A program made the position numbers and the translations under genes. The notes beneath the pieces were generated by a model. That model was not told the DNA's origin and searched no databases. It worked only from the letters and a program-made list of their open reading frames with translations. This document shows positions 4,457 to 38,883 of a stretch of DNA of 64,000 nucleotides, in pieces; positions within the stretch are counted from its first letter, which is position 1, and each line of letters opens with the position of its first letter. This DNA comes from an uncultured Bacteroidota bacterium (GTDB lineage: Bacteria; Bacteroidota; Bacteroidia; Bacteroidales; 4484-276). The stretch covers positions 1-64,000 of the forward strand of contig CAJATL010000335.1 in the NCBI GenBank assembly GCA_903944895.1, written 5' to 3'.

Positions 4457-5665
4457 TTATTGCTGATTAAAAGCGTCGAAATCGAACAGCAGCGTAAACC
4501 TGAGGGTGTTTTCCATCGGGTTTTGTTGTTCAAGCGGAATCAGGTACGAAAAATCAAGTCCGAAAACATTGTATTTTAAACCTGCTCCAAGCGTGAAATA
4601 CTGACGATTACCTTTTGTTTTATCTTCATAAAAGAAACCACCGCGAATGGCGAAAACTTTATTGTACCAGTATTCGACGCCGGTTGCAAAATAAAACTCG
4701 CGCATTTCTTCCTGGAAGCCATCCGGAGCATCATACCATGATTGCACCATGCCTTCGACGGGCGACACATTTGGATCCATTCCTTTGTAAATTAACTGGT
4801 TTCCATTGTCGTCATAAATTGGGTTTCCAAGCGTATCCGTAGCATAAATTGGCGGTGTTGGAACCAGCAATTTTTCGATATCGACAGTAAACGACATGCG
4901 GTTATATTCGTCGAAGTCGAGGGTAAGTCTTGGGCCAAAACGCAGGTTTGTAGGGATAAAATCCTTTTCGGTGGTGGCATCAGAGTAAGAGATTTTTGAA
5001 CCGATGTTCGAAATATTGGCTCCAAAAGCAAATTCTGCATATTCAAAATTACGCCAGTCTAATTCGCGTTGATGATACACGGAAACATCGGCAGCCACGG
5101 ATGTACCTGCTTTAGTCTGTTGTCCCTGAACAACCTGTCCCTGGGTAAGGTCGGAATAAATAAAACGGCCGGCAACAGCGCCAGACCATGTTTTAGAGAA
5201 TTTTCTGGAATAGGTACCGTCGATCGCAAATTCGTTAGGTCTGAAATTTCCGATTATTTCTCCGGTTTCATCAGTAAAAGTGATATCACCAAGCGAGAAA
5301 AAACGCAACGAACCGGCAACAGCCGATACATCGTCCAATTTGTAATACCCGGTAATATAGGCCAAATTGATGTCGTTCACCAACGAACGAAGCCAGGGAC
5401 TGTAAGCTGCAGAGAATCCAACCTTCGATTCCATGAAGGCATATTTTGCAGGATTGTAATGCATCGAATTTGCATCAGGCGTGGTAGCAACTCCTGCGTC
5501 ACCCATCGAACCTCCGCGGGCATCGGGAGCAATTAACAGAAAAGGTACTGCTGTGGTAATGGTGTTGGTTTGTTTTCCAATGTATTGTTCGGTATTAATC
5601 TGCGCATAAATGCTCATGCTGGAAACCAGCAAAGCAAAACAGGCTAAAGTGACTTTTCGGCTCAT
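4457..5665 (-). CDS. porV: T9SS outer-membrane shuttle protein PorV (LptO)
   Basis: The 402-aa protein has a signal peptide ending SIYAQ. It is a predicted 14-strand FadL-type barrel with the PorV hallmarks TAVPFLLIAPDARGG and GDAGVATTPDANSMHYNPAKYA close to the N terminus. In the T9SS, PorV collects cargo from the translocon and delivers it to the sortase PorU. The ORF track extends to 5767, but the extra N-terminal residues precede a normal signal peptide, so the start at 5665 is preferred. porU-type genes lie directly upstream, the gene order known from Flavobacterium and other Bacteroidota. Confidence 0.95.
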   Translation of the reverse strand: MSRKVTLACFALLVSSMSIYAQINTEQYIGKQTNTITTAVPFLLIAPDARGGSMGDAGVATTPDANSMHYNPAKYAFMESKVGFSAAYSPWLRSLVNDINLAYITGYYKLDDVSAVAGSLRFFSLGDITFTDETGEIIGNFRPNEFAIDGTYSRKFSKTWSGAVAGRFIYSDLTQGQVVQGQQTKAGTSVAADVSVYHQRELDWRNFEYAEFAFGANISNIGSKISYSDATTEKDFIPTNLRFGPRLTLDFDEYNRMSFTVDIEKLLVPTPPIYATDTLGNPIYDDNGNQLIYKGMDPNVSPVEGMVQSWYDAPDGFQEEMREFYFATGVEYWYNKVFAIRGGFFYEDKTKGNRQYFTLGAGLKYNVFGLDFSYLIPLEQQNPMENTLRFTLLFDFDAFNQQ

Positions 5666-5779
5666 TAGAATAATTTTGATATGATTTTGATTTTTAATAG
5701 AAAGACGCAAAACTAACGACATTATTTTTTTTATATTGTTTTGCACGAATGAACGATAAAGAAGCAAATTTGTTTAAAA

Positions 5780-8700
5780 TTACTTTGAAATGATCATTTT
5801 TTGGATGCGCTCAGCACTTGAACCCTGCTCATTTTCAGCTTTTAGCTTGTAAAAATAAAATCCCGGGCGAAGTTTGCTCCCTCCTTCATCGGTTCCATCC
5901 CACCAAAGTGGTTCAACATAATATCCTGAAGTAGACACCTTGATCGGGCCAATTTTCCTGACCATCTGACCGCCAAAATTGAAAATCTCAATTTGTACAT
6001 TAAGTTCGGTCCCGTATTGATTATGTTTAAACTTAAATAAGGTATAATCGTTGAATGGATTCGGAGAATTCATCACTTCGGTAAGATCCATCACAATTGA
6101 ATCGGAAACGATAAATTCGATGGTTTTAGAAGAGGAATTATTAAACATATCCCAGGCTTTCAGTTGGAGGGTGTGCCGGCCTAATGAAAGGTTTTGAAGC
6201 GGTAACATTACTGTTCCTGACTGATAACTGTTGATGTCGGGCACGAAGGAATTGTTCAGGGTGATCGATTGATTTGTGTTGCCATCCAAAACTGCGACTA
6301 TATCATGACCAATTCCGCTTCCTGAGGCATTAATCCCCTGTTGGTCACTCAAATGAGCGTACATCACCGGGTTGTTGTAAATGGTGCTGCCGTTAACAAA
6401 CAAACTATCGTTGAGGTACAAATAAATGTCCGGGCCTACCTGATCGTTTTCAGCGGTTTTGTCGTAGCCGCCAATAATAAAACTGTCGTAATATCCGGCG
6501 GCGTCACTGGTGCTGTCGGAGGCGTAATAACTGATTTTTCCCGGGCCAAATTCGTAAGAAATATCTTTTGGTACGATAAACGTAAACTCAAATTTTCCGT
6601 TTACCACCGAAACTTTCCCTTCATAAAGTCTCCTGTTTTGAATCTTAAATGACTCAGGAAAGCTTTTGGGATCGTTGCCCAAAGTCATCAAAGTGACTTC
6701 TTTATCAAATAAAACCGGTGTAATTTCGCCATTAAACCCCGAAACAACACTTCCTTCTTCATTTAAATTAGAAATATGACCACTAATTCTCACAGTACTA
6801 TTTGCAAAAATGGTGTCGTGAGTATTGGAGGCTACATTTCCGTTAATCGAATCGGTAATAATATTATAGCGCGGAAAGGCGATATTGAGCGCCGGGTCGC
6901 CAAGAAGGTGGAAGTTTTTGGTGTTGGTGTTCGACGGTGTCTTCGAAAACCGGATCATGTCGCCAAGCCTCGGGTAATTTCCGGGCGTTGACAAAAACAG
7001 CGTATCATAAAGCCGTTTGTTGAGGGTAAGATTAACGCCGGCAAAAGCAAGCCGTGTTGTGGTGAAGAGTGCAATTCCACCTCCTGTCGGGCTTAATAAG
7101 ACAAGCTCGCCGGCTGAAGTTAAATGGGGATTGTCGAAGCGGCTGAATTCGCAGGTTGCGGTGATGAAAACCGGCAATTTGTCAAAATTTGTCCATGAAT
7201 TAATATCAGAAATCTGCAAAACATGCTCGATCGTCCAGCCCAGTTCACCGCCATGGCCGGTGTAATTCATAAATAAAGCCCCATCATTTATTTGCTTGTT
7301 GAGGGCAATATTTGCTTCGGGGTAGGTGTAACCATTTGAAGTAGTTTCCTGCTTAAATGAATCGAGATAAATTTTGTTGATGTTGATGGTTTTGTTTCTG
7401 CGCGAAATATCTTTTACCAAAATGGTATCGGCCTGATAAAAATGAAGGTTATAGTCCTCGTCATCGGCCATGAAACAGAAATCATTCCGCCAGCTTCCCT
7501 GAACGTTCGAGCTGAACCGCATGTAATGTTCAATTTTATCAACTACATCTTTTGCCTCCTGAAGGGTGTTTACAGGAAATCTTCCGATTCCAAGATCAAC
7601 ATCACCGCTGGCATCAACACCTTCATTATCATCCATCAGACCAAAAAAATCATCCGTTACGTAGGAAGATGTTGGTTTTAGCGATTGTTTGGATTGGTAG
7701 GTTATAACGAAATTTTTGTTTTCATCCAGCCGGTTTTTCGGATCGTAAGAGCCATCACCAAACAACAGCAAATATTTAAGTTGTGGCGTTGACCCCGAAC
7801 GTTCATAAAGCATTTTTGCATACTCACGAATTGCTGTCGGGTCGGGGGATCCAGACGAAAATTCATTAAATATCTGATCCGGTTCAACAACAATCACGCG
7901 CATATTGTCCAGCTCTTCATGAAGTTCTTTCAGCCTTACGGCCTGTTCCATGAATATTTCAGGTGCGATGATGATAAAATCATAAATTTCGAAATTGGCA
8001 TGCAGGTTTTGATTATCGATTTTTCCAATGAGTTCTGGAGATAAAAATTCCTGATTGTCAAACCCGATAAATTGTCGGAGTGTATCGGTGTCGAGCGAAA
8101 ACCGGATGGTTTCGCTGGTGTTGGTGATATCAATTTCTCCCGGTTCGGTGGGGTTGGTGATATCCCAGATCGTGAGCTGTGCCGGAGCCTGGCTGATGAC
8201 AAACTCGGTTACATTGCCTGCACCGACATTCGAGAAATCCCTGAAATCCATCTGACTGCCTTTAAAAATCAAATGACGCATCACATTAATTTCGATGTAG
8301 TTGAGCCATCCTGTCGAATTGTTGTCGGGAAGAAGATAAGTTAAATTTACGTCGATGAGGTCGGTGGGCGAATTGAACCTGAAGGTTTTTAACAATGAAT
8401 TTGCAAAATAAACCGGCGATGAAAGCACAACCGCAGGAACCCGTGCCACCGTCATCGAATCTTCGTTAATATTTATTTCAAACGAACTGATAACAGCACT
8501 TCTGGCGGCGACTTCAACGGCAAAATAACTCGAATAATCCTGAACAATATTCGGGAAATTGAATTGAAAATCCCGGCTCAAAACATCCTGAAACTCTTCG
8601 CCGTACCATTCGGCTCCCGATTTTATCAGATTTCGGCTATCATTTTCATAAAAATCATAATCGGCAAAAGTGGTTATTGATTTTGTAACTGGGCTTTGAC

Positions 8701-9613
8701 TTTGAGCAATCATCGAAACTCTTTTTCCAACCTGCTGACCGCTGGTTATAAAATAAAAGGTGCTGTCGGAATACAGGTTGGCGGTGTGCGTGAAAGCCAG
8801 TTTTAACGGAACGAAATTCCATGAAGACTGAGATTCTCCGTAAAACAGGATAAAATCACCCTCATCAAAACTTCCATCTTTACCATCTTCCACAACAATG
8901 GCGTTTTCGCGAAGGTCATCGTGCCTGTAATCGGCATTTTTTTCGGGAAGCATGCCGGCGCCGTTTCCATAAATCTGCAGTGTTGCAGGATCAATGGCAT
9001 CAGCATCCATACCTAAATCTTTCAACTGCTGGTAGGAAAGCTTGTAAACACCTGATTCGACCACAGCAATTTTAAACCAGTCGCCTTGTGCCAAAACTGA
9101 AGTGGCAGCAAAATCGCGGGCATGACGGGTATTTTTCAGTTGGTTGTTGTCCTGAACTTCGTTGATGTGCAGGTTAAAACTGAGCAACTTTTCATAATTA
9201 CCAGTTTGAAGGTTTAACCGGATCGGAAGCATTTTAAAAACAGCGTAATTCACACGGCGGTTTACAGCAAGTTCGGTTTTCGATTGGATGTCGAAAGCTA
9301 TAAGATCGCGGTCGGCCAGGTTATCAAACAACGATTGGTCTTCAAAAGGCTGGTAAATGGCATCCTCAATATAAAAATCAAAAGTAGTTCCAGGGTTTTG
9401 GATAAGAAATCTCTCGGAAAAAACAGGTAAAAGCCCAAAGCCATCATCATTTACAGCCCCGATAAATCCGGGTGTTTTGATGGTTGAGCCGTTAAATTGC
9501 ATTTCTTCAACACCAGTCCAGGAAATGATCCGTGGAACAATTTTTTCGACGGAATTTGTAAATGCCGGATGAACCAACATCACCAAGAAACAAAGCGTCA
9601 GAATTTTTTTCAT
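5780..9613 (-). CDS. porU: T9SS C25-family sortase PorU, paralogue 2
   Basis: This 1277-aa protein has a signal peptide, a long beta-rich prodomain-like region, a gingipain-type (C25) peptidase domain around residues 550-950, and a C-terminal T9SS/FlgD-Ig-like domain ending KMIISK. The catalytic dyad is intact: His787 in YTGHGGE and Cys821 in TATCEFSR. PorU cleaves the C-terminal signal of T9SS cargo and attaches the anchor at the cell surface. It lies 114 bases upstream of porV and 48 bases downstream of a second, similar protein. Which of the two is the main sortase cannot be decided from sequence alone; adjacency to porV favours this one. Confidence 0.9.
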   Translation of the reverse strand: MKKILTLCFLVMLVHPAFTNSVEKIVPRIISWTGVEEMQFNGSTIKTPGFIGAVNDDGFGLLPVFSERFLIQNPGTTFDFYIEDAIYQPFEDQSLFDNLADRDLIAFDIQSKTELAVNRRVNYAVFKMLPIRLNLQTGNYEKLLSFNLHINEVQDNNQLKNTRHARDFAATSVLAQGDWFKIAVVESGVYKLSYQQLKDLGMDADAIDPATLQIYGNGAGMLPEKNADYRHDDLRENAIVVEDGKDGSFDEGDFILFYGESQSSWNFVPLKLAFTHTANLYSDSTFYFITSGQQVGKRVSMIAQSQSPVTKSITTFADYDFYENDSRNLIKSGAEWYGEEFQDVLSRDFQFNFPNIVQDYSSYFAVEVAARSAVISSFEININEDSMTVARVPAVVLSSPVYFANSLLKTFRFNSPTDLIDVNLTYLLPDNNSTGWLNYIEINVMRHLIFKGSQMDFRDFSNVGAGNVTEFVISQAPAQLTIWDITNPTEPGEIDITNTSETIRFSLDTDTLRQFIGFDNQEFLSPELIGKIDNQNLHANFEIYDFIIIAPEIFMEQAVRLKELHEELDNMRVIVVEPDQIFNEFSSGSPDPTAIREYAKMLYERSGSTPQLKYLLLFGDGSYDPKNRLDENKNFVITYQSKQSLKPTSSYVTDDFFGLMDDNEGVDASGDVDLGIGRFPVNTLQEAKDVVDKIEHYMRFSSNVQGSWRNDFCFMADDEDYNLHFYQADTILVKDISRRNKTININKIYLDSFKQETTSNGYTYPEANIALNKQINDGALFMNYTGHGGELGWTIEHVLQISDINSWTNFDKLPVFITATCEFSRFDNPHLTSAGELVLLSPTGGGIALFTTTRLAFAGVNLTLNKRLYDTLFLSTPGNYPRLGDMIRFSKTPSNTNTKNFHLLGDPALNIAFPRYNIITDSINGNVASNTHDTIFANSTVRISGHISNLNEEGSVVSGFNGEITPVLFDKEVTLMTLGNDPKSFPESFKIQNRRLYEGKVSVVNGKFEFTFIVPKDISYEFGPGKISYYASDSTSDAAGYYDSFIIGGYDKTAENDQVGPDIYLYLNDSLFVNGSTIYNNPVMYAHLSDQQGINASGSGIGHDIVAVLDGNTNQSITLNNSFVPDINSYQSGTVMLPLQNLSLGRHTLQLKAWDMFNNSSSKTIEFIVSDSIVMDLTEVMNSPNPFNDYTLFKFKHNQYGTELNVQIEIFNFGGQMVRKIGPIKVSTSGYYVEPLWWDGTDEGGSKLRPGFYFYKLKAENEQGSSAERIQKMIISK

Positions 9614-9661
9614 GTTTTAATTTCAGGATATGTATCTTAAAAACAGCTTGTAAAAGTCGGT

Positions 9662-12600
9662 TTATCGGGCTATGATGAGTTTTTTAACGGAAGAAATCGT
9701 TTGTCCGGCTTCATCAGTAGCCTTTACGTAGTAAATATAAATTCCTGCACGAAGTGAAGCGCCACCCGAACTATCGCCATCCCATTTTATCGGGGTCGAA
9801 TAATAGCCGTCGTTCATGTTTTGCTGACTAAGCGTAGCTACCAGCCTTCCGCTCAGGTCGTAAATCTCAATTTTAACATCGAGTTGCGTGCCCGGTTTGT
9901 TGTGGTTGAATTTGAAATAGGTTTCGGTTTTAAATGGATTTGGATAATTAATCAATTGATTCATTGTGAAATTATCCCCATCAACAACCACAAACCTGAG
10001 CTGTGCTTCAGCCGAATTGTTGTAAACGTCCCAGAGTTTCACGGACACTTCATGTTCGCCGGGTTCGAGGTTAAAAAACGGGAAACTCACATCACCTGAT
10101 TTATAGCTGTTTAGTTGGGCTTCATAAAAATCGTTGAGGATAAACTGGTTTTCGTTATTGTTGTCGAGCACAGCTACAATGTCGTGTCCAATGCCATTTC
10201 CAACAGTATTGATACCGCTTTCATCAAAAATCTTTGCAAATAAAACCGGGTTTGAGTCGGTAATATCACCGGACCTGAAGTCCTCGTTATTCATAAAAAG
10301 TTCGATTTCGGGAGCTTTGTCGTCGGTACTTCCCGAATCATCAAAGCCTCCGATGATCAGATCTTCCTGAAATCCACTGGCATCTTCAATGCCATTTTCG
10401 GCATAGTAGCTTATTTTTCCTGTGCCGTATTCGTAAGCAATGTCTTTTGGGACAACAAAAGCGTATGAAAATTTCCCGTCGATTATCTGTGCTTTTCCCT
10501 TGTAGATAATGTTTTTGCGGAGCTTAAATGTTTTGGGAGAGCTTTCATCGTCCTGGCCCAGTGTGGTAACAATGGATTCTTTATCATAAACAATCGAGTA
10601 AATCGTACCATTGAAGCTGCTTAACGTTTTGCCGCTCCCATCGAGAATTTCACCAGAGATCGAAACATCCGAAAGTGCTTTGAGGGTATCGGGTGCAGAT
10701 GTAGTTGGATTTTCGTTGATCGACAACGTTTCGATTGAGTATTTTGGATAGGCGATTTTTAAGGCCGGATCACCGAGGAGTACAAATTTCATATCGTTAC
10801 TTTCGGAGGAGCTTTCCAGCTTTGCCAGCCGGATCAGGTCGCCCATGGCGTAATGTTCGCCATCGATTTTATCGAAAGCATGTTTATAAAAACCTTTATT
10901 AAGGCTAAGATTAGAACCGCCAAAAGTAGCCCGTGCAGTGGTGAACAGCGAAATGCCTCCACCGTTCGGGTTCAGGAAAACATATTCGCCGGCCGAAATC
11001 CGGTTGGGGTCGTCATAGCGGGTAAATTCGCAGGTGGCAGTAAGAAATACCGCAAGTTTATCCCAGTTTGTCCAGCTGTTAATATCCGAAACCTCGAGCA
11101 CGCGTTCGTGCGCCCAGCCAACTTCACCTCCGTGGCCGGTATAATTAATGATGAGCGTGCCTTTTTCGATGCGCGAACTGATGGCTGCATTTACATCGGG
11201 ATAGCGCTGGCCGCCAGGTGTAGAAGCCTGCTGATACGAATCGAGGTAGATTTTATCAATATTGTACGAACGATAAGAAGTATCAACAAATGTGGCTAAT
11301 TGCTCGGCCTGCGTCATGTGTACATTCCCGTCTTCATCATCGGCTGTAAAAGTTAAAACATTTCTCCAGTCGCCCATTAAATTTGCCGAAGTGGCATAGT
11401 GAATAACTTTATCAACCGCCATTTTCGCATCGACCGTATTCTGAACAACAAATCTGCCGATGCCAATATCGAGTAAATCACCACTACCAACGCTTTCTTC
11501 GGGATCGAGAAATCCAAAATAATCATCCGTTGCAAACGAATTGATAAAATGCAGGGATTCGTCGGATTCGTAAGTTGGGATGAAATTACTGTTGACAGGT
11601 AAAATATCTTTAAAATCATAAGAAGCATCCCCGAAAAGCAGCAGGTATTTTGGATTTCCACTTTCGCCCGAGCGTTCATAAAGCATTCTCATAAAATCCT
11701 TGATTGCCGTTAAATCCTGTGATCCCGACGAAAACTCATTGTAAATGCTTTGGGGGGTGCAAACTGCAACGGTAAGATTTGAATATGTTTTATGGAAGTC
11801 GGCAAGACGGTTGGCCTGATCGAGAAAATCAGGATGGCTTACGATAACATATTCGATGTTTTTGAGGGCATGAAGATTTTGATTTTCGATGGTTTCGACA
11901 AATTCAGCCGAGAGAAATTCAGAGCCGTCAAAAGCCATGAATTGAAGGAGTTCAGGCGTTGGAACGGTAATTTTTAATGTACTGCCCTCAAGTGAACCTT
12001 CTCTTTGAATGACATTGGTGGGATCAGTAACATCCCAAACCTTGAGACCGGCTGCGGCATTACTGATGCTGAACTCCGAAATATTATTGGCCCCAACAGC
12101 AGATAACGACCTAAAACCCATCTGCCCTGAAGTAAAAACCAGATTACGAATAACATTTACCTCAATAAAATCGAGCCAACCCGTTGAGGTGCTTGGCGAT
12201 TTGTTATATTTTATGGTTACATTAACTTCGGGTGCAGAACTAACGAAAGGTTTTTCACTACTCACTGTGCGGGCATAATAACCATTTGGATTAGCCGAAA
12301 CGGCAGGAACAATCATCGAAGTTACTACTTCGCCGTTTATTGATACAACAAACGTACTCGAACTTGATGATTGTGCCACAACCTTTACATTTACATGATG
12401 AAAGGCTGAAACATCAATATTTGGAAAAGTAAAAGGAAAAGTAAGTGTTGTTTGAAGGTCGAACAAATCGCCGTACCATTCGCGGCCTGATTTTATCAGG
12501 TTAACATTATCTTTTTCGTAAAAATCGTAATCGTTAAATTGTGATATCGTAATATTTGGAGTTATCCCGATAACAAACTCATTTAAAATCCTTTTTCCGG

Positions 12601-13474
12601 CACCAAGATCGGTTGTAATAAAATAGCAGGTGTAATCGGCATAGATATTTCTTTGGTGATTAAACAAAGTGCCGGCAGCATTTGGCTTCCATGCATCGGG
12701 GGCTTCACCGTAAAACAGGAAATAATCGTTGTCGTTAAATTTGCCGTCGCCGCCATCAACAACTTCGATGGCGTTTTCCTGAAGATCGTCGAACCTGAAT
12801 TCCGAATTTTTCTCCGGGAGCATCCCGCCGCCGTTGCCATAAAGCCTGAGGTTAGCCGTATTTACCGAGGCTACGTTAATTCCCATCGCGGTTAAATCGG
12901 CCGTAGTAACTTTGTAAACGCCGCTTTTATTGACCTTGATTTTAAACCATTTTCCCGACGAAAGCACCGAATTTTCAGCATATTCACGAGATTGGCCTGC
13001 TTTTGTTGTAGCCTGAACAGTGGTGAGAACAAGATTAAAAGCAACAAGTTTTTCGTATTTGCCGGTTTCGTTGTTCAATCTGAAAGGCAGAAATTCGACC
13101 AGGGCCACCGCCTTTTTACTGGCTCTTCCAAGTTTGACTTTCAAATTAATGGTTGTCGAAATTTCAGGCAAGTTTTCGAGGGTCAATATTTCTTCGCTGG
13201 TAAGAGGCTCAAAAACAGTTTCGGTCATTTGAGCGGAAATATCGCCTATTTCTCCCTCGAGTTTGATTTTTTGCCGGTAAACTGGCGTGGTTGGAGAATA
13301 ATCATCATAAAAGGCACCTTCGAAATACATCCTGGCAACGGAGGTGTTTTCGCTAATTTGAATGTTTTGTAATGCAGTCCATTTAATTTCCTGATCCAAC
13401 ACCTGGGTTGTGGCAGAAACGAAAAATGGCACTACGAGCGATATGAGTAAAATAAACAGTTTTCTAAGTTTCAT
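9662..13474 (-). CDS. porU: T9SS C25-family sortase PorU, paralogue 1
   Basis: This 1270-aa protein has the same layout as its downstream neighbour: signal peptide (MKLRKLF onwards), prodomain, C25 peptidase domain, and a C-terminal sorting-type domain ending KLIIAR. The dyad is intact: His781 in YTGHGGE and Cys815 in TATCEFTR. The two proteins align along their full length, with many shared blocks but clear divergence, so this is an old tandem duplication. The ORF track start at 13564 adds 30 residues before a good signal peptide, so 13474 is preferred. It is divergent from the PorP/SprF gene across about 240 bases. Confidence 0.88.
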   Translation of the reverse strand: MKLRKLFILLISLVVPFFVSATTQVLDQEIKWTALQNIQISENTSVARMYFEGAFYDDYSPTTPVYRQKIKLEGEIGDISAQMTETVFEPLTSEEILTLENLPEISTTINLKVKLGRASKKAVALVEFLPFRLNNETGKYEKLVAFNLVLTTVQATTKAGQSREYAENSVLSSGKWFKIKVNKSGVYKVTTADLTAMGINVASVNTANLRLYGNGGGMLPEKNSEFRFDDLQENAIEVVDGGDGKFNDNDYFLFYGEAPDAWKPNAAGTLFNHQRNIYADYTCYFITTDLGAGKRILNEFVIGITPNITISQFNDYDFYEKDNVNLIKSGREWYGDLFDLQTTLTFPFTFPNIDVSAFHHVNVKVVAQSSSSSTFVVSINGEVVTSMIVPAVSANPNGYYARTVSSEKPFVSSAPEVNVTIKYNKSPSTSTGWLDFIEVNVIRNLVFTSGQMGFRSLSAVGANNISEFSISNAAAGLKVWDVTDPTNVIQREGSLEGSTLKITVPTPELLQFMAFDGSEFLSAEFVETIENQNLHALKNIEYVIVSHPDFLDQANRLADFHKTYSNLTVAVCTPQSIYNEFSSGSQDLTAIKDFMRMLYERSGESGNPKYLLLFGDASYDFKDILPVNSNFIPTYESDESLHFINSFATDDYFGFLDPEESVGSGDLLDIGIGRFVVQNTVDAKMAVDKVIHYATSANLMGDWRNVLTFTADDEDGNVHMTQAEQLATFVDTSYRSYNIDKIYLDSYQQASTPGGQRYPDVNAAISSRIEKGTLIINYTGHGGEVGWAHERVLEVSDINSWTNWDKLAVFLTATCEFTRYDDPNRISAGEYVFLNPNGGGISLFTTARATFGGSNLSLNKGFYKHAFDKIDGEHYAMGDLIRLAKLESSSESNDMKFVLLGDPALKIAYPKYSIETLSINENPTTSAPDTLKALSDVSISGEILDGSGKTLSSFNGTIYSIVYDKESIVTTLGQDDESSPKTFKLRKNIIYKGKAQIIDGKFSYAFVVPKDIAYEYGTGKISYYAENGIEDASGFQEDLIIGGFDDSGSTDDKAPEIELFMNNEDFRSGDITDSNPVLFAKIFDESGINTVGNGIGHDIVAVLDNNNENQFILNDFYEAQLNSYKSGDVSFPFFNLEPGEHEVSVKLWDVYNNSAEAQLRFVVVDGDNFTMNQLINYPNPFKTETYFKFNHNKPGTQLDVKIEIYDLSGRLVATLSQQNMNDGYYSTPIKWDGDSSGGASLRAGIYIYYVKATDEAGQTISSVKKLIIAR

Positions 13475-13717
13475 GATACTAATAAGTTTAATAAAACCTG
13501 TAAAAAAATGCCGGTCATCCCAGCCTTGATTTAATGTTACAATTTTGATTTCCTCAATTAACAATTAATTCGTTCAGATGTTGATTAGCGCTTGTAACAA
13601 ACTGTTAAAAAACGCCTTACGGCTCTCAATATTGCTGCCGGCTTAGCGGCTTTAAAATATTCTCATTAATAAAGAGTTAAATAGATAAATATTGGTTGCG
13701 TGAACAGGCTGAATATC

Positions 13718-14719
13718 ATGTTAAAAAATTTCAAATTTCTTTTTATCATCCTCCCGGCGATGTTATTAGCCAGCATGTTGGCATCAGGCCAGGATTACAC
13801 CTATTCGCAGTTTTATGCAAATCCACTGTATTTGAACCCGGCATTGGCAGGATCGGAGTATTGTCCCAGGATATCGCTCAGTTACCGCAACCAATGGCCG
13901 GCACTTCCGGGATCGTTTGCCTCTTATGGTGTGTCGTTCGACAAATATGTCGATTTTATACACGGTGGCGTGGGCGTGATCGTAAATTATGATAAGTCGG
14001 GCGAGGCAGCCATTAACAAAGCCCAGATAAATGCCATGTATGCTTACAACCTGATTATCGACAGCAAAATCTCAGCGAATTTTGCACTTCAGGCCGGGTA
14101 TGGTCAGAGAAGTGTTAATATGAGCGACTTTGTATTTGGATCGCAAATTGACCCTGGAACCGGCAATGTTATTACTAACAGCGGGCCATTTGGTGAATCA
14201 TCCAGCGCTGTTTATTATGCTGATTTTGCCGGTGGCTTTTTGCTGGGCTTCGATGAAAAATACTTTTTCGGGGGTGCAGTTCATCATCTTACCCAGCCCA
14301 ACGTTAGTTTTTTTTATGGAGAAGAGGATTTGCTCAACATGAAAATTACAGTTCATGGTGGCGCCAACATTGATTTTGACAACGGTTACCGCCGCTCGGC
14401 TACACCGGGTTTTAAGATCTCACCCAATGTGTTGTATCAGCAACAAGGCGATTTTAAACAGCTCAATGTTGGAAGTTATTTTACCTTTGCCTCATTTACA
14501 GCTGGTTTGTGGTACCGATATGCCTTTGAAAACACAGATGCAGCGATAGTTTCCTTTGGTTTTACAAAAGATAATCTCAGGGCGGGTTATAGTTTTGACT
14601 ACACCGTTTCGAAACTTACAAGTGCAACCGGCGGTGCACACGAAATATCGGTTGCCTGGATTTTCGACTGCGAGAAAAAAAGTAGAAGACCAAAAACAAT
14701 AATATGCCCGACATTTTAG
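13718..14719 (+). CDS. PorP/SprF family T9SS outer-membrane protein
   Basis: The 333-aa protein has a signal peptide followed by the family signature QDYTYSQFYANPLYLNPALAG and SLSYRNQWPALPG, then barrel strands up to ISVAWIFDC. PorP/SprF proteins belong to the T9SS machinery or to specific cargo export and anchoring to the cell surface. ATG at 13718 is preferred to the GTG at 13700 because it places the signal peptide at the N terminus. gldJ follows after 29 bases, so the pair is probably one transcript. Confidence 0.9.
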   Translation: MLKNFKFLFIILPAMLLASMLASGQDYTYSQFYANPLYLNPALAGSEYCPRISLSYRNQWPALPGSFASYGVSFDKYVDFIHGGVGVIVNYDKSGEAAINKAQINAMYAYNLIIDSKISANFALQAGYGQRSVNMSDFVFGSQIDPGTGNVITNSGPFGESSSAVYYADFAGGFLLGFDEKYFFGGAVHHLTQPNVSFFYGEEDLLNMKITVHGGANIDFDNGYRRSATPGFKISPNVLYQQQGDFKQLNVGSYFTFASFTAGLWYRYAFENTDAAIVSFGFTKDNLRAGYSFDYTVSKLTSATGGAHEISVAWIFDCEKKSRRPKTIICPTF

Positions 14720-14748
14720 TTAATTACACTGTTTTGAAAAAAAACCCG

Positions 14749-16245
14749 ATGAAAATGTTCAGAATAAAGCAGTTATTTGGTTTATTAACCATTATTTCCA
14801 TTTCAGTATTTAGTACATCCTGTAAAGGTATTTTTGGGACGAAGAACAGCGCTTCGCCTACTACCGGCTGGGAATACAACAATCCTCAAAACGGGGGTTT
14901 TGAAGTATCAAAAGTTAACGAACAGGAAACCGGTCCCGGTTTGGTGTTCATCGAAGGTGGTACCTTTGTGATGGGACAGGTAAAGGAAGACCCTTTATCC
15001 GAAAATAATAATCCACCACGAAGAGTTACCGTTCGCTCCTTTTATATGGACGAAACGGAAGTTACCAACCTCGATTACCTCGAGTATCTTTACTGGCTGA
15101 GTCGTATTTATGGCGAAGAATATCCGGAAGTTTACCGCAAAGCCTTGCCAGACACGCTGGTATGGCGCGAACGGCTCGCCTACAATGAGCCTTTGGCTAA
15201 TTTGTACCTGCGTCATCCATCATACCACAATTACCCTGTTGTTGGTGTTTCCTGGAAACAGGCCTCCGATTACTGCTCATGGCGCTCCGACCGGGTTAAC
15301 GAAATGCTCCTGATCCGTCAGGGAATTCTTGACCCGGATCCTGATCAGGCTGGCAGTAACAATTTTAATACCGACGCCTATTTAGCCGGACAATACACCG
15401 GATTGGTTAATAAACCGTTGCAAGACCTCGACCCGAGCGGAACCGGCGAAAGAGCTGTCCGCATGGAAGACGGAATCCTTCTGCCGAAATACAGGCTTCC
15501 AACCGAAGCTGAGTGGGAATATGCAGCAGTTGGCCTTTCCGGAAAATATGAAAATATTGCCGAGCGCCGCACTTATCCCTGGGATGGACAACAAGTGAGA
15601 AATACCGGCGACAAAAAATATTACGGCGAGTTTAACGACAATTTTAAACGTGGAAGAGGCGATTACATGGGCCTTGCCGGCAGCCTGAACGATGGATCCG
15701 ACATTACTGCCCCGGTTGGAACGTATCCTCCAAACGATTTTGGTTTATATAATATGGCCGGTAATGTGAGCGAATGGGTTCAGGATGTTTATCGCCCGCT
15801 CAGCCACGAAGATGTAGCCGATTTCAGCCCTTTCAGAGGTAATGTTTTCATGACGCCCGAACTGGACGAAGAAGGTAATCTGGCTGAAAAAGACAGCCTT
15901 GGAAAAATGCGCTACCGCGAAATTACAGTTAATGAAGCCGTTGACCGCACCAATTATCGTGAAGCTAATAATATTAATTACCTCGATGGTGATAATCGCT
16001 CTGTACTCGAACGCTCACAATGGCAATCATCAACAAACAATCAGACTTCTACCAAAAAAATGTATGATTACGGCCAAAACTCACTGATTAATGATGAGTC
16101 GAGGGTTTTCAAAGGTGGTTCATGGCGAGATGGCGCTTACTATCTCAGCCCCGGAGTAAGAAGATTTTTTGATCAAAATGAAGCCACAAACTTTATTGGT
16201 TTTCGCTGCGCAATGGACAGAGTGGGCGGGGCCAGTATCAAGTAA
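14749..16245 (+). CDS. gldJ: Gliding motility / T9SS lipoprotein GldJ
   Basis: This 498-aa lipoprotein has a lipobox at STSC (Cys about 25). The rest is a formylglycine-generating-enzyme-like (SUMF1) fold: GTFVMGQ, DETEVTN, YRLPTEAEWEYAA, NMAGNVSEWVQDVY and the C-terminal FKGGSWRDG with GFRCAMD. GldJ is needed for gliding and stabilises GldK and the T9SS. The locus order porV-porU-gldJ is conserved in Bacteroidota, which favours GldJ over GldK. ATG 14749 is chosen over the ORF start at 14704, which overlaps the previous gene and precedes the signal peptide. Confidence 0.9.
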   Translation: MKMFRIKQLFGLLTIISISVFSTSCKGIFGTKNSASPTTGWEYNNPQNGGFEVSKVNEQETGPGLVFIEGGTFVMGQVKEDPLSENNNPPRRVTVRSFYMDETEVTNLDYLEYLYWLSRIYGEEYPEVYRKALPDTLVWRERLAYNEPLANLYLRHPSYHNYPVVGVSWKQASDYCSWRSDRVNEMLLIRQGILDPDPDQAGSNNFNTDAYLAGQYTGLVNKPLQDLDPSGTGERAVRMEDGILLPKYRLPTEAEWEYAAVGLSGKYENIAERRTYPWDGQQVRNTGDKKYYGEFNDNFKRGRGDYMGLAGSLNDGSDITAPVGTYPPNDFGLYNMAGNVSEWVQDVYRPLSHEDVADFSPFRGNVFMTPELDEEGNLAEKDSLGKMRYREITVNEAVDRTNYREANNINYLDGDNRSVLERSQWQSSTNNQTSTKKMYDYGQNSLINDESRVFKGGSWRDGAYYLSPGVRRFFDQNEATNFIGFRCAMDRVGGASIK

Positions 16246-27987: not shown

Positions 27988-30783
27988 TTAATAAACACCC
28001 AAAAGTAATGAATAAACAATTAATATGACCATAATTACTCCAAGGGCGAGGAATGTGAATCCAAAAAACTTAACTACTTTCATCCATTGTGGCGAAAATT
28101 CTCTTTCTACGACCATCTCATCAAGTCTGCCCGATTCAACCAATTCCTGATATTCACGGGGACGATCTTTTTTGTATTCCTCCAAAGGCACATGTCCGGT
28201 AAAAATTACAGTGTCCATCGGGAACGATTCCGGCCGGAGGTGAGTGTTAAAAAAGTGAATCGTGAAAATAAATCCTGTCGCAAGTAAGGCTTCATCGCTA
28301 TGAATAATCTGGGCAACGTTGATAGCCCAGCCAGGTAAAAACAGCGTAAAAAATTCCGGAAACCATAAAATCAAACCAGAGAAACCAATTACCGCTACAC
28401 CCCAAAATACTGCCATGTAATCAAACTTTTCCCAATAGGTCCAGCGACCATACTCAGGGCGGGGGCCTTTACCCAAAAACCATTTTATCGAATCACGCAG
28501 ATCAAAATAATCCTGCTTATTAAACATAATAGAGCCTTTGCCGAAAACAAATTCCTTAATACTGCTGCCTGCTTTAGCTCTGAGTAAAACCAGATTGTAC
28601 AGATGAAATGCGAAATACCCGAAGGTCAGGATTGCAGCAAAACGATGCAGGTTCCCGGCAATTTTAACTCCACCAAGTAAGTTAGCTACAAAAGTAGCCC
28701 ATTCCATGTGTGCAAATTTCAGTGTCATTCCGGTTAGTGCAAGCACTAAAAAGCTTATGATAACCATCAGGTGGGTAAAACGCTGCCTCGTGTTAAAACG
28801 GCGGTAATACTTGATTGGGCCTGTTTGTTTTTCGTGTTTATTCTTTTTCCGCTGTTTCATCGACTTTGGCAGCCAGATGAGTGTATGAAATCCGAAAAAT
28901 GAAAACACGGATACCAACAGAGTGGTCATTGCCCAAAATGAATAAAACAGAATGTCGTTATCGTTGTGTGTGGCATGGGTCAGATAGCCAGTAAACTCAA
29001 GATTGGCGTTGCTGTGACATTTTTTACAGGTTGTGACAATGTTTTTAAATCCTATCTGTGAGTTAGGATTTTTCCCGTTGAGAATATAGTGAGATCCATG
29101 ACAATCTGAACATCTGGCAGCTCGTAAATCACCGAGCTGGTATGCTTTGCCGTGGTAAGTTTCTTTATAGGTTTCAGAAAGTTTTTGATGGCATTTACCA
29201 CATTGCAGTGTGACTTCAGTCATGAATTTGCTTTGATCGATTTCGCTGATAATATGCGCAGAATGGCAATCGGTGCAAGTCGGGAACTTTAATTTATCGG
29301 TATTGTTTCTGATAGAGTGGTCGCTGCTCAGGTATTCGTCATAAATGCTTTTGTGGCATTTAGCGCAGGTTAACGGAACATTTGCAGGATTTACTGATGA
29401 GGCGCTATCAGACATTTTAAGTTCGTGGTGTGTAGTATGGCAATCGGTGCAAATGGCGCTTACAAGCAGGCCTTTTTCGATTAATCCCTTGCCGTGAATA
29501 CTTTTTGAATAATCAGCATAGGCATCAACCTCTTTTAAAACGGCGTGATTATTAGCCTGTCCGCCCTTGCTGTGACAGCTTCCACAAAGAGCAGGAACAG
29601 CAGACCTATAGATGGGTGATTTATCATCAGTTTTGGACTTGGTTTCATGCGTGCCATGGCAATTGGTGCAATAAGGTGCGTCTGGTTTTTTCTCAATGTA
29701 GGCCTTTCCATGCCCGCTGTCGAAATAATCGTTGGCAACTTCGATGTGGCAGTTCGAGCAATCAACCCATTTGGATGTTTCGCATGGTCGTTCCAGTTTT
29801 GGATTTGCATCAGCATGGCATTTAATACATGGAATATTTAAGTGTACCGAATTAGCCAGGTGTGAAATATCAACAGGTATGATGCTATCACCCTTAAAAA
29901 TTGGCCTTTTTGTAGTATTGGCAACATCGTGGCAAGCCAGGCACACCTTGTTGGAAACAGTTTTTTCGATCGATTGAAATTCGACAATATGTGGCGGGTG
30001 GCAATCGCTGCATGAAGGCACGGCACCAGGTTCTTTTTCCCATAATTCATTTCTGACTACTTTTTTGTGTGTCTGCTCAATTCTAACGTGACATGTCATA
30101 CAAGTAGTTGCAACCTGATCGTGATGAATAGTAGAATTTTTATCGGTATGTGGCAACACCAGGTGGTTCCCGTGACAGTCGTTACAAGTTGCAGTTACCA
30201 GAAGGCCGCTTTCGAATAATCCTCTTCCGTGAATCCCTTCACTATAGTTTTCGATAATGTTGTGCTCGGTAATATTGTAATTTCGTGATACCGGCGCCCC
30301 TTCTTTGTGGCAATTCCCGCATAAATACGGGATATTCATTTTATAGGTGCGTGAAGCCGGGTTGGTTCGGGTAAGAATGTCGTGTGTTCCATGACATTCT
30401 TTACAATCCGGGGCATAAGGATCATTTCGGCTGAAGGCTTTTCCGTGGATGCCCTGGAAAAACTCCATGTCGGCATCTTTATGGCAGCTCCCGCAATTCA
30501 CAAGCGGCATTTTTTTTATGTTGTCGGCATGAGGGAAATTCTCAGCATCTTCTTCGATATGGCATTTAACACATTCAACAGTAGCATGTACCGATTTTGA
30601 AATTGCTTCGGGTGTAATAAATAAAGATACCTTTTTGCCCTTTCTGACCATTGTCAGTTCAGGATCGCCATGGCACATCAGGCAATCATCATTTGTCTGG
30701 GCAACAAGTTTTCCCGAAATCAGTATTAAAACAAAAATCAGAATCTTGTTAACGATAATAAAATATTTTCTCTTAGCTTGCAT
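27988..30783 (-). CDS. 19-haem cytochrome c fused to a cytochrome b561-type membrane domain
   Basis: This 931-aa protein has a signal peptide (about 28 aa), 19 CXXCH motifs spread over residues 34-590, then about five hydrophobic spans with conserved His residues (TRQRFTHLM, NLHRFAA, FAFHLYN, IIHSDEAL, FTIHFFNTH) like a b561/formate-dehydrogenase-gamma cytochrome b. The haem part is internally repeated: haems 2-9 and 10-17 follow the same order with HGKA, GTH and CG(N/S)CH landmarks, and haems 18-19 begin a third copy. The fusion could pass quinol electrons straight into a long periplasmic haem wire. Its promoter carries an FNR-like site. Confidence 0.88.
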   Translation of the reverse strand: MQAKRKYFIIVNKILIFVLILISGKLVAQTNDDCLMCHGDPELTMVRKGKKVSLFITPEAISKSVHATVECVKCHIEEDAENFPHADNIKKMPLVNCGSCHKDADMEFFQGIHGKAFSRNDPYAPDCKECHGTHDILTRTNPASRTYKMNIPYLCGNCHKEGAPVSRNYNITEHNIIENYSEGIHGRGLFESGLLVTATCNDCHGNHLVLPHTDKNSTIHHDQVATTCMTCHVRIEQTHKKVVRNELWEKEPGAVPSCSDCHPPHIVEFQSIEKTVSNKVCLACHDVANTTKRPIFKGDSIIPVDISHLANSVHLNIPCIKCHADANPKLERPCETSKWVDCSNCHIEVANDYFDSGHGKAYIEKKPDAPYCTNCHGTHETKSKTDDKSPIYRSAVPALCGSCHSKGGQANNHAVLKEVDAYADYSKSIHGKGLIEKGLLVSAICTDCHTTHHELKMSDSASSVNPANVPLTCAKCHKSIYDEYLSSDHSIRNNTDKLKFPTCTDCHSAHIISEIDQSKFMTEVTLQCGKCHQKLSETYKETYHGKAYQLGDLRAARCSDCHGSHYILNGKNPNSQIGFKNIVTTCKKCHSNANLEFTGYLTHATHNDNDILFYSFWAMTTLLVSVFSFFGFHTLIWLPKSMKQRKKNKHEKQTGPIKYYRRFNTRQRFTHLMVIISFLVLALTGMTLKFAHMEWATFVANLLGGVKIAGNLHRFAAILTFGYFAFHLYNLVLLRAKAGSSIKEFVFGKGSIMFNKQDYFDLRDSIKWFLGKGPRPEYGRWTYWEKFDYMAVFWGVAVIGFSGLILWFPEFFTLFLPGWAINVAQIIHSDEALLATGFIFTIHFFNTHLRPESFPMDTVIFTGHVPLEEYKKDRPREYQELVESGRLDEMVVEREFSPQWMKVVKFFGFTFLALGVIMVILIVYSLLLGVY

Positions 30784-36416: not shown

Positions 36417-38639
36417 CTATTTTATGAACACTTTTTTACGATAGTTCTTTTGATCGGTCGAAATGTCGAGAAAATACATCCCGGCTGTAAGGTTTAAAGT
36501 CGAAACATTAAATGACTCATCCTTGCCGATTTCACCAATATTTGTTTCAGTCATTAATTTTCCCTGAAGGTTGTACAATCTTAAAGTTACGTCCTTCAAA
36601 TCAATGCCCGGAACAATGATGAATCTGCCATTTGATGGATTGGGAAAAACCTGCAACGTGGCCCCAGATTCAGGTTCCGAAATCCCGATTGTATTTAAAA
36701 CAAGGGTTTCGGTGAAAATATCGTTTCCACACATTTCGCTTGTTGAAGTTAGACTTACCAGATAGGTTCCATCGGAAGAATAGGTATGAATCGGGCTTGT
36801 TTCTGTGCTGGTATTTCCATCACCAAAATTCCAGAGGTAACTTACCGCATTTAACGAAGTGTTGCTGAATGAGATAATCAGTCCAGCCTGGCTCCAGGTA
36901 AAACTTGCAACCGGCTCAGGATAAACTGTAATATAGTTTGTTTTGGTTTCGGTAACAGAACCATTAATCGTAAGGCTCACCGTTTTATTACCCGATGTTG
37001 AATAGTTTACCGTGTGCGGGCCTTGCGTGCTTGCCGTTGCAGGTGATGCCCCTGCACCAAAATTCCATGCCCATGAAGAAGCTGCAGTGGAGTTATCAGT
37101 AAAAATTACTCCCTGCGCAGTACAAACCTGTGTAACATTTGCTGAAAAGTTTGCGGCAGCAGTTTCCAGAATAATCGTTTGGGAGGTTACATCATTTCCG
37201 CAGGTATTACTTGTTGATGTTAAGCTTACGTTGTATGTTCCGCCTGTTGAGTAGGTGTGAACCGGGTTTGTTTGGGTGCTGGTGTTTCCATCACCAAAAT
37301 CCCATAAATAGCTGATTGCATTTTGGGAAGTATTGGTGTAAGTTACGGTAAGATCTGATTTCTGATAGCTAAAGCCTGCAACCGGGTCAGGATAAACTGT
37401 GATATAATTGGTTTTTGTTTCAGTCACAGCGCCGTTAATGGTCAAACTTACTGTCTTACTACCTGGTGTAGAATATGTAACGGTGTGTGGGCCCTGTGTG
37501 CTTGCTGTTGTGGGGCTTGCTCCAGGACCAAAATTCCACATCCATGATGTTGCTCCGGTTGAATTATCTGTAAAAATTACGTTTTGTGCTGTACAAACCT
37601 GGGTAACATTTGCTGTGAAGTTTGCAGCAGCAGTTTCAAGAATAATTGTTTGTGATGTTACGTCATTACCACAGGTGTTACTGGTTGAAGTAAGTGTAAC
37701 GTTATAGGTGCCACCTGATAAATACGTATGAACCGGACTTGTCTGGGTGCTGGTGTTTCCATCACCAAAATTCCACAAATAGCTGTTTGCATTTTGAGAT
37801 GTATTGGTGAAAGTAACAGTTAAATCAGATTTTTGATAACTAAAATTCGCAACCGGGTCAGGAGAAACCGTGATATAGTTTGTTTTTGTTTCGGTTATTG
37901 CTCCATTAATGGTTAAACTAACCGTTTTGTTTCCCGGTGTAGAATACGTTACATTATGAGGCCCTTGAGTCGTTGCTGTTGCAGGGCTTGCTCCTGAACC
38001 AAAATTCCATGCCCAGGAAGTAGCTCCTGTCGAATTATCGGTAAATGTGACGTTTTGAGCAGTGCAAACCTGGGTAACGTTTGCATTAAAATTAGCCGAC
38101 ATCGGGGTGTAGGTAAGGCTGATGTTTTTAATGTAGGTTTGATTGGCAGGATTCATAGTGACCGGCTGTGTACCTTTATTAAAAGTAACCTCCACAAAAG
38201 GCCCTTGTGAATGTTTATCTGTAAACTCAAGAATTACAGTGTAATCTCCATCCACAACAACATTACCGTTTAAATCTTTACAATCCCATGTTACAGTATG
38301 GGTTTGGTGTGATGTAAGTGTAGATCCGGTGATTGCATCAACAACATTATAATTGGATGCTGCTTTCCACTTCAAAAGCCATTGTTTACGCGCATTGGCC
38401 ATAGCCTTGCGGGTTTTTACAAAAACACCGTTTTTTTCGACCCAGATTGCCAAAACATGTTTTGGCGCATACGAGCCTCCGGCTGATGACGTTGTTGCTG
38501 TAAATGTTACCAAACCTGCGGTATTAGCCCGCTGATCGCCGGTTTTTTCATTATCACCGGAGGTAAAGGAGGTGAAAAGGATTACCATAAATAGTGCTAC
38601 CGTTGCCAATAACAAAGACGTTAAGTACCTGTTTTTCAT
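36417..38639 (-). CDS. Secreted PKD-repeat protein with DUF2271-like domain and T9SS sorting signal
   Basis: This 740-aa protein has a signal peptide, a DUF2271-like domain at about 40-165 (PKHVLAIWVEKNGVFVKTRK, DAITGSTLTSHQTHTVTWD), then three tandem 157-aa units, each with two PKD-type folds (the WNFGDGNTSTQTSP motif), and a C-terminal T9SS type A domain (QVFPNPSNGRF ... YRKKVFIK). It should be exported and attached at the surface by the T9SS. The function is unknown; PKD repeats usually act as spacers or sugar/protein-binding modules. The start at 38639 is chosen over 38660 because it gives a cleaner signal peptide. Confidence 0.88.
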   Translation of the reverse strand: MKNRYLTSLLLATVALFMVILFTSFTSGDNEKTGDQRANTAGLVTFTATTSSAGGSYAPKHVLAIWVEKNGVFVKTRKAMANARKQWLLKWKAASNYNVVDAITGSTLTSHQTHTVTWDCKDLNGNVVVDGDYTVILEFTDKHSQGPFVEVTFNKGTQPVTMNPANQTYIKNISLTYTPMSANFNANVTQVCTAQNVTFTDNSTGATSWAWNFGSGASPATATTQGPHNVTYSTPGNKTVSLTINGAITETKTNYITVSPDPVANFSYQKSDLTVTFTNTSQNANSYLWNFGDGNTSTQTSPVHTYLSGGTYNVTLTSTSNTCGNDVTSQTIILETAAANFTANVTQVCTAQNVIFTDNSTGATSWMWNFGPGASPTTASTQGPHTVTYSTPGSKTVSLTINGAVTETKTNYITVYPDPVAGFSYQKSDLTVTYTNTSQNAISYLWDFGDGNTSTQTNPVHTYSTGGTYNVSLTSTSNTCGNDVTSQTIILETAAANFSANVTQVCTAQGVIFTDNSTAASSWAWNFGAGASPATASTQGPHTVNYSTSGNKTVSLTINGSVTETKTNYITVYPEPVASFTWSQAGLIISFSNTSLNAVSYLWNFGDGNTSTETSPIHTYSSDGTYLVSLTSTSEMCGNDIFTETLVLNTIGISEPESGATLQVFPNPSNGRFIIVPGIDLKDVTLRLYNLQGKLMTETNIGEIGKDESFNVSTLNLTAGMYFLDISTDQKNYRKKVFIK
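36653..38065. repeat. Three tandem 471-bp repeats inside the PKD gene
   Basis: The landmark CAAACCTG occurs at 37123, 37594 and 38065, exactly 471 bases (157 codons) apart. The units are highly similar at DNA level, the left-most being the most diverged, so this is a recent in-frame expansion. Confidence 0.85.
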
Positions 38640-38883
38640 TGTTTTTATTTTTAATATCAAAAATTAAAGTGGCCAAAATTAATACTTTTTACATATATAG
38701 AATCCAAAATGTTTAAATGGTTGCATCTGAATCCTATTTTTATTACAGCTCCTCAAATCAGGAAATGTAGGAACCCTTTCTGAGGCCGATAATTCCGCAT
38801 AAACGTCCATCCGCCATGCTTCGTTTTCCAAAAATAAAATGCTTTAGTTAAATCAGTAATTTTTTAATAAATACCGGCACAAA

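Follow-up and report, generated by a model that had tools for sequence, protein, structure and literature searches.

An old tandem pair of diverged PorU-type sortases in Bacteroidales

We found two complete, diverged PorU genes in tandem, next to a single porV, in a 64,000-nucleotide stretch of DNA from an uncultured Bacteroidota bacterium (the window). PorU is commonly regarded as a single, general sortase. The pair is not peculiar to this genome; it is old and occurs in many Bacteroidales families. While the pair itself is solid, a division of labour between its members is put forward here as a hypothesis. In the reading that we prefer, at a probability of roughly 0.55, an old duplication gave rise to a diverged sortase pair in which the upstream copy is indispensable and the downstream copy is accessory, needed for large cargo repertoires.

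Two PorU genes in the porU-porV locus

Both genes lie on the reverse strand. The upstream PorU, the first of the pair, occupies positions 9662..13474 (1270 aa from an ATG at 13474), and the downstream PorU, which adjoins porV, occupies 5780..9613 (1277 aa), with an intergenic gap of 48 bp between them. Against the PorU equivalog model NF033707, the two proteins scored 1370 and 1297 bits, respectively, over the full model length, compared with a cut-off of 420. They share 43% identity, and the Pfam Peptidase_C25 domain (PF01364) spans residues 542-906 of the upstream copy and 546-910 of the downstream copy. In a phmmer search, PorU 6ZA2 was the sole PDB relative of either protein. The same structure was the best Foldseek match of both AF2 models, which had mean pLDDT values of 89.5 (upstream) and 88.2 (downstream). 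No further PorU above the cut-off was detected in a search of the window's genome, and the tandem pair therefore represents its only PorUs.

The catalytic residues are retained in both copies. In the upstream copy these are His781 (codon at 11132..11134, reverse strand) and Cys815 (11030..11032, reverse strand), equivalent to RgpB His211 and Cys244 in the HMM alignment and present in all 73 upstream copies. The downstream counterparts, His787 (7253..7255, reverse strand) and Cys821 (7151..7153, reverse strand), are H and C in 72/72 downstream copies covering the respective site. These data bear out the sequence-only reading of this DNA, which had described two complete, active-looking PorU proteins in tandem, each keeping the C25 His and Cys; both open reading frames were recovered with the coordinates and lengths given above. 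Its further claim, that each protein ends in a T9SS-type C-terminal domain, held directly for the upstream copy, where a type A domain at 9665..9946 (reverse strand) scored 29.4 bits with TIGR04183 (cut-off 23). The corresponding downstream region (5783..6064, reverse strand) reached 19.4 bits, below that cut-off, and the domain is covered there by the PorU model and by predicted strands: in both copies the PorU match extends through the C terminus, and a run of C-terminal β-strands ends both AF2 models.

The same reading had named a counter-case, in which one of the two is an ordinary secreted protease of the gingipain type outside the T9SS. Both copies do carry a C25 domain, and other proteins of this genome match the catalytic region of that model at 31-59 bits. 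However, over the full PorU model each copy reaches three times the cut-off, PorU is their best match by model and by structure (6ZA2), and the order porU-porU-porV recurs in many families. This explanation is refuted by sequence and synteny, and we regard it as extremely improbable.

The gene porV, encoding the shuttle protein, lies 12 bp past the downstream porU (4457..5767, reverse strand; NF033710, 497 bits) and was the one full PorV found in the genome search. Divergently oriented are a porP/sprF-like gene (13700..14719, forward strand; TIGR03519, 227 bits) and gldJ (14704..16245, forward strand; TIGR03524, 461 bits). The order murF-gldJ-porP / porU-(porU)-porV-ispF was conserved in 99 loci from relatives and 77 named loci, and both upstream and downstream PorUs sit in the porU-porV locus across families. 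A second PorV acting as the partner of the second PorU was considered and rejected, as PorV-family counts were mostly 2-4 whatever the number of PorUs. Elsewhere, the window encodes a probable cargo protein of 747 aa (36417-38660), with PKD repeats and a type A T9SS C-terminal domain, and a 931-aa protein combining multihaem cytochrome c domains with a cytochrome b561-like part (27988-30783).

Distribution, origin and divergence of the pair

Of 294 genomes in the order, 76 contained two strong PorU matches, according to a hand count in which at most two matches were scored per genome and a few represent split genes. The expectation that most Bacteroidota carry one PorU next to porV thus holds for about three-quarters of this order. 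Within the window's own family (G001-G011), two copies were found in every genome except G010, in which the one PorU seen reaches the contig end. Tandem loci also occur in MAGs titled Lentimicrobium sp. and Lentimicrobiaceae. For genome annotation, one porU per genome should not be assumed.

One locus, L075 (G280:C259, 4894-16752), contains three complete tandem PorU genes ahead of porV, the middle and last of which cluster within the downstream clade. Another, L056 (G024:C100), has a third PorU-like open reading frame of 875 aa (90-2714) in a genome that also carries a tandem pair; in the alignment, Ile replaces its catalytic Cys and the C-terminal part is absent.

In an IQ-TREE phylogeny of 32 proteins, the upstream copies formed one clade (95/97) and the downstream copies another (93/95), with ordinary single PorUs outside both. 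Because these separate clades each span more than 10 families, one old duplication accounts for nearly all pairs. Forcing the three pairs of family f1 together gave a delta lnL of 129 (AU p=0.0003), which rejects a family-level duplication. Large FastTree runs had pointed to re-duplication in families f82, f51 and f94, but this signal disappeared in a second IQ-TREE run of 35 rows that included the oddly placed pairs, where 13/13 downstream copies formed one clade (100/97). A few other PorU duplications, such as those in G032 and G231, look separate.

Judging from codon comparisons, both copies appear to be kept under purifying selection. Between the window and a congener, dN/dS was ~0.06 for the upstream and ~0.12 for the downstream copy, although these values are rough, dS being near saturation. 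The downstream copy was the faster-evolving one in 28 of 31 disjoint pairs, with a median ratio of 1.24 (65 loci).

Two upstream-specific residues were found in the catalytic domain. Thr850 (10925..10927, reverse strand) is conserved in 65/65 upstream copies and occurs in 2/64 downstream copies, 62/64 of which have A or S. Lys896 (10787..10789, reverse strand) occurs in 63/65 upstream copies but in none of the 64 downstream copies, 57 of which have N. The top four clade-separating columns all fall within the C25 domain (hypergeometric p=0.007), whereas the top 10 gave p=0.13. Ordinary single PorUs, which are without T850/K896, usually carry L-V or L-A at positions 849-850 together with N at 896 (hereafter LV/N and LA/N), which suggests that the upstream state is derived. 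In the HMM alignment, positions 849/850 match RgpB D281/Q282, adjoining Y283/W284, which we take to be part of the gingipain S1 pocket wall. This signature supports a functional change but does not prove one, because a long branch between clades always brings fixed differences. In two of the apparently separate duplications, L115 (G231) and L062 (G032), one copy has K at the site equivalent to K896 and the other does not, a possible case of parallel divergence.

Cargo repertoire and the role of the second copy

As a loose measure of cargo, we counted first-look candidates for TIGR04183 type A C-terminal domains per Mb. The median was 46.6 in tandem genomes (n=43, range 28-65), 18.9 in ordinary LV/N single-PorU genomes (n=20) and 59.5 in LA/N single-PorU genomes (n=8, with 37-78 in 7/8). 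Since most LA/N single-copy genomes are cargo-rich, a second PorU of this kind is not required for many cargo proteins. Genomes with an upstream-type PorU only had the lowest median, 14.5 (n=7); they carry a single porU beside porV in the locus and no second strong PorU, a result that depends on how complete these genomes are.

In a FastTree phylogeny, the upstream-only genomes appeared at three places among tandem relatives (support 1.0, 1.0 and 0.98), and the downstream copy was therefore probably lost three times. The three lineages had 8-20 candidates per Mb, compared with 34-58 in near tandem relatives. Three events are few, and genome reduction could drive both the loss and the low cargo number. 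Among the single-copy rows of the downstream clade, none was recognised as a genuine loss of the upstream copy; these rows were explained by contig ends, a partner on another contig, a third degenerate copy, or doubtful placement (G015).

Cargo C-terminal domains ending in E were considered as a signature of copy type. They made up 22/40 domains in LA/N singles, 3/44 in upstream-only genomes, 10/65 in tandem genomes and 2/29 in LV/N singles. The signature was rejected, as tandem and upstream-only genomes did not differ significantly (p=0.23) and LV/N singles were low too; the frequency seems to follow lineage. Across the LA/N, LV/N, upstream-only and tandem genomes compared, no difference between cargo C-terminal domains was tied to copy type. 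As a separate observation, PorU2-like proteins in single-PorU genomes seem to go with high cargo density (5/7 vs 2/24, Fisher p=0.002, for groups drawn by hand after the data had been seen). Two such proteins of ~1680 aa (G038:C33:1462-4807 and G023:C201:5458-9267) are direct neighbours of a PorV-family protein and lie outside the porU locus.

In our preferred reading, both genes encode true PorU sortases, C25-type cysteine peptidases that the type IX system exports and PorV presumably holds on the outer membrane. They would remove the C-terminal domain of exported cargo and attach the newly exposed end to an acceptor at the surface. A single tandem duplication, dating back to a common ancestor of many Bacteroidales families, produced two copies that were both retained, giving two porU genes and a single porV in one likely operon. 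The upstream copy would then have gained the fixed changes T850 and K896 in its catalytic domain, beside the putative S1 wall. The downstream copy, nearer the ordinary PorU state at 850/896 and evolving ~1.2 times faster, would be lost as the set of cargo contracts. The upstream copy is most likely the indispensable sortase, with the downstream copy acting as an accessory for part of a large cargo set. Different cargo for each copy, an idea put forward in the sequence-only reading, would agree with both the catalytic-domain differences and the link to cargo number. A stronger version, which we hold only tentatively, is that the type IX system in many Bacteroidales employs two different sortases: following the duplication, the substrate pocket of the upstream copy would have changed, and the two enzymes would divide cargo according to cleavage site or fate (anchored or released). 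If true, this would be of direct relevance to the choice that PorU makes between anchoring and release.

Clearly less probable than our preferred reading is a simple effect of dosage, with both copies doing the same job, cargo-rich cells needing more sortase, and the sequence differences reflecting drift. The 28-65 candidates per Mb in tandem genomes, compared with a median of 19 for ordinary LV/N singles, fit this explanation, as do the few cargo that accompany downstream-copy losses and the one genome with three tandem copies (L075). However, the presence of T850 and K896 in all or nearly all upstream copies, and their absence or near absence downstream, is unlike drift between interchangeable copies. 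LA/N single-copy genomes are, moreover, equally cargo-rich on one copy, and losses were seen for the downstream copy only. Dosage alone is disfavoured by these fixed differences and by the cargo-rich single-copy genomes.

It is unlikely that the pair is regulatory, forming a mixed dimer in which the copies hold each other latent and the second copy helps to time activity. Upstream residues ~950-1002, presumably the inhibitory β-hairpin, contain no large gaps in either clade and differ between them, for example, at 987, 988 and 992. PorU is indeed inhibited on dimerisation by the β-hairpin of its partner (PMC10202324), but both copies keep the catalytic pair, which would be superfluous for a mere inhibitor. 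Slightly more doubtful still is the suggestion, a second idea of the sequence-only reading, that the two sortases attach cargo to different surface sugars or lipids; linking sugars do vary between T9SS species (PMC11969387), but neither the locus nor the comparisons made pointed to a second acceptor.

Comparison with known systems

The PorU family is already known, and the mechanism of PorU, PorV and A-LPS anchoring has been described (PMC10202324). No description of a PorU tandem was found in the literature searched, which left out most subscription papers, and a clade-wide pair of diverged PorUs appears to be new within that literature.

The gingipains RgpB and Kgp, which also belong to C25, share the catalytic fold and catalytic pair with the window copies. 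Unlike a sortase, however, they are secreted proteases, and their identity to the window copies is 14-16% by structural alignment. Another PorU-related, C25-containing family is NF052324 ('putative type IX secretion system sortase PorU2'), which supplies some genomes with an additional sortase-like protein. The window PorUs scored 172 and 158 bits with this model, far under its cut-off of 450, and are not members of it. PorU2-like proteins elsewhere are ~1600-1700 aa long and are encoded on contigs other than that of porU.

The closest known counterpart is Porphyromonas gingivalis PorU (6ZA2), which is latent as a homodimer (PMC10202324) and resembles the window copies in full-length family, catalytic His/Cys and fold. 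It has V and S at the sites of upstream T850 and K896 (HMM alignment). In contrast to P. gingivalis, the window carries two diverged copies in tandem, both of which have a longer N-terminal part ('long form', NF052318).
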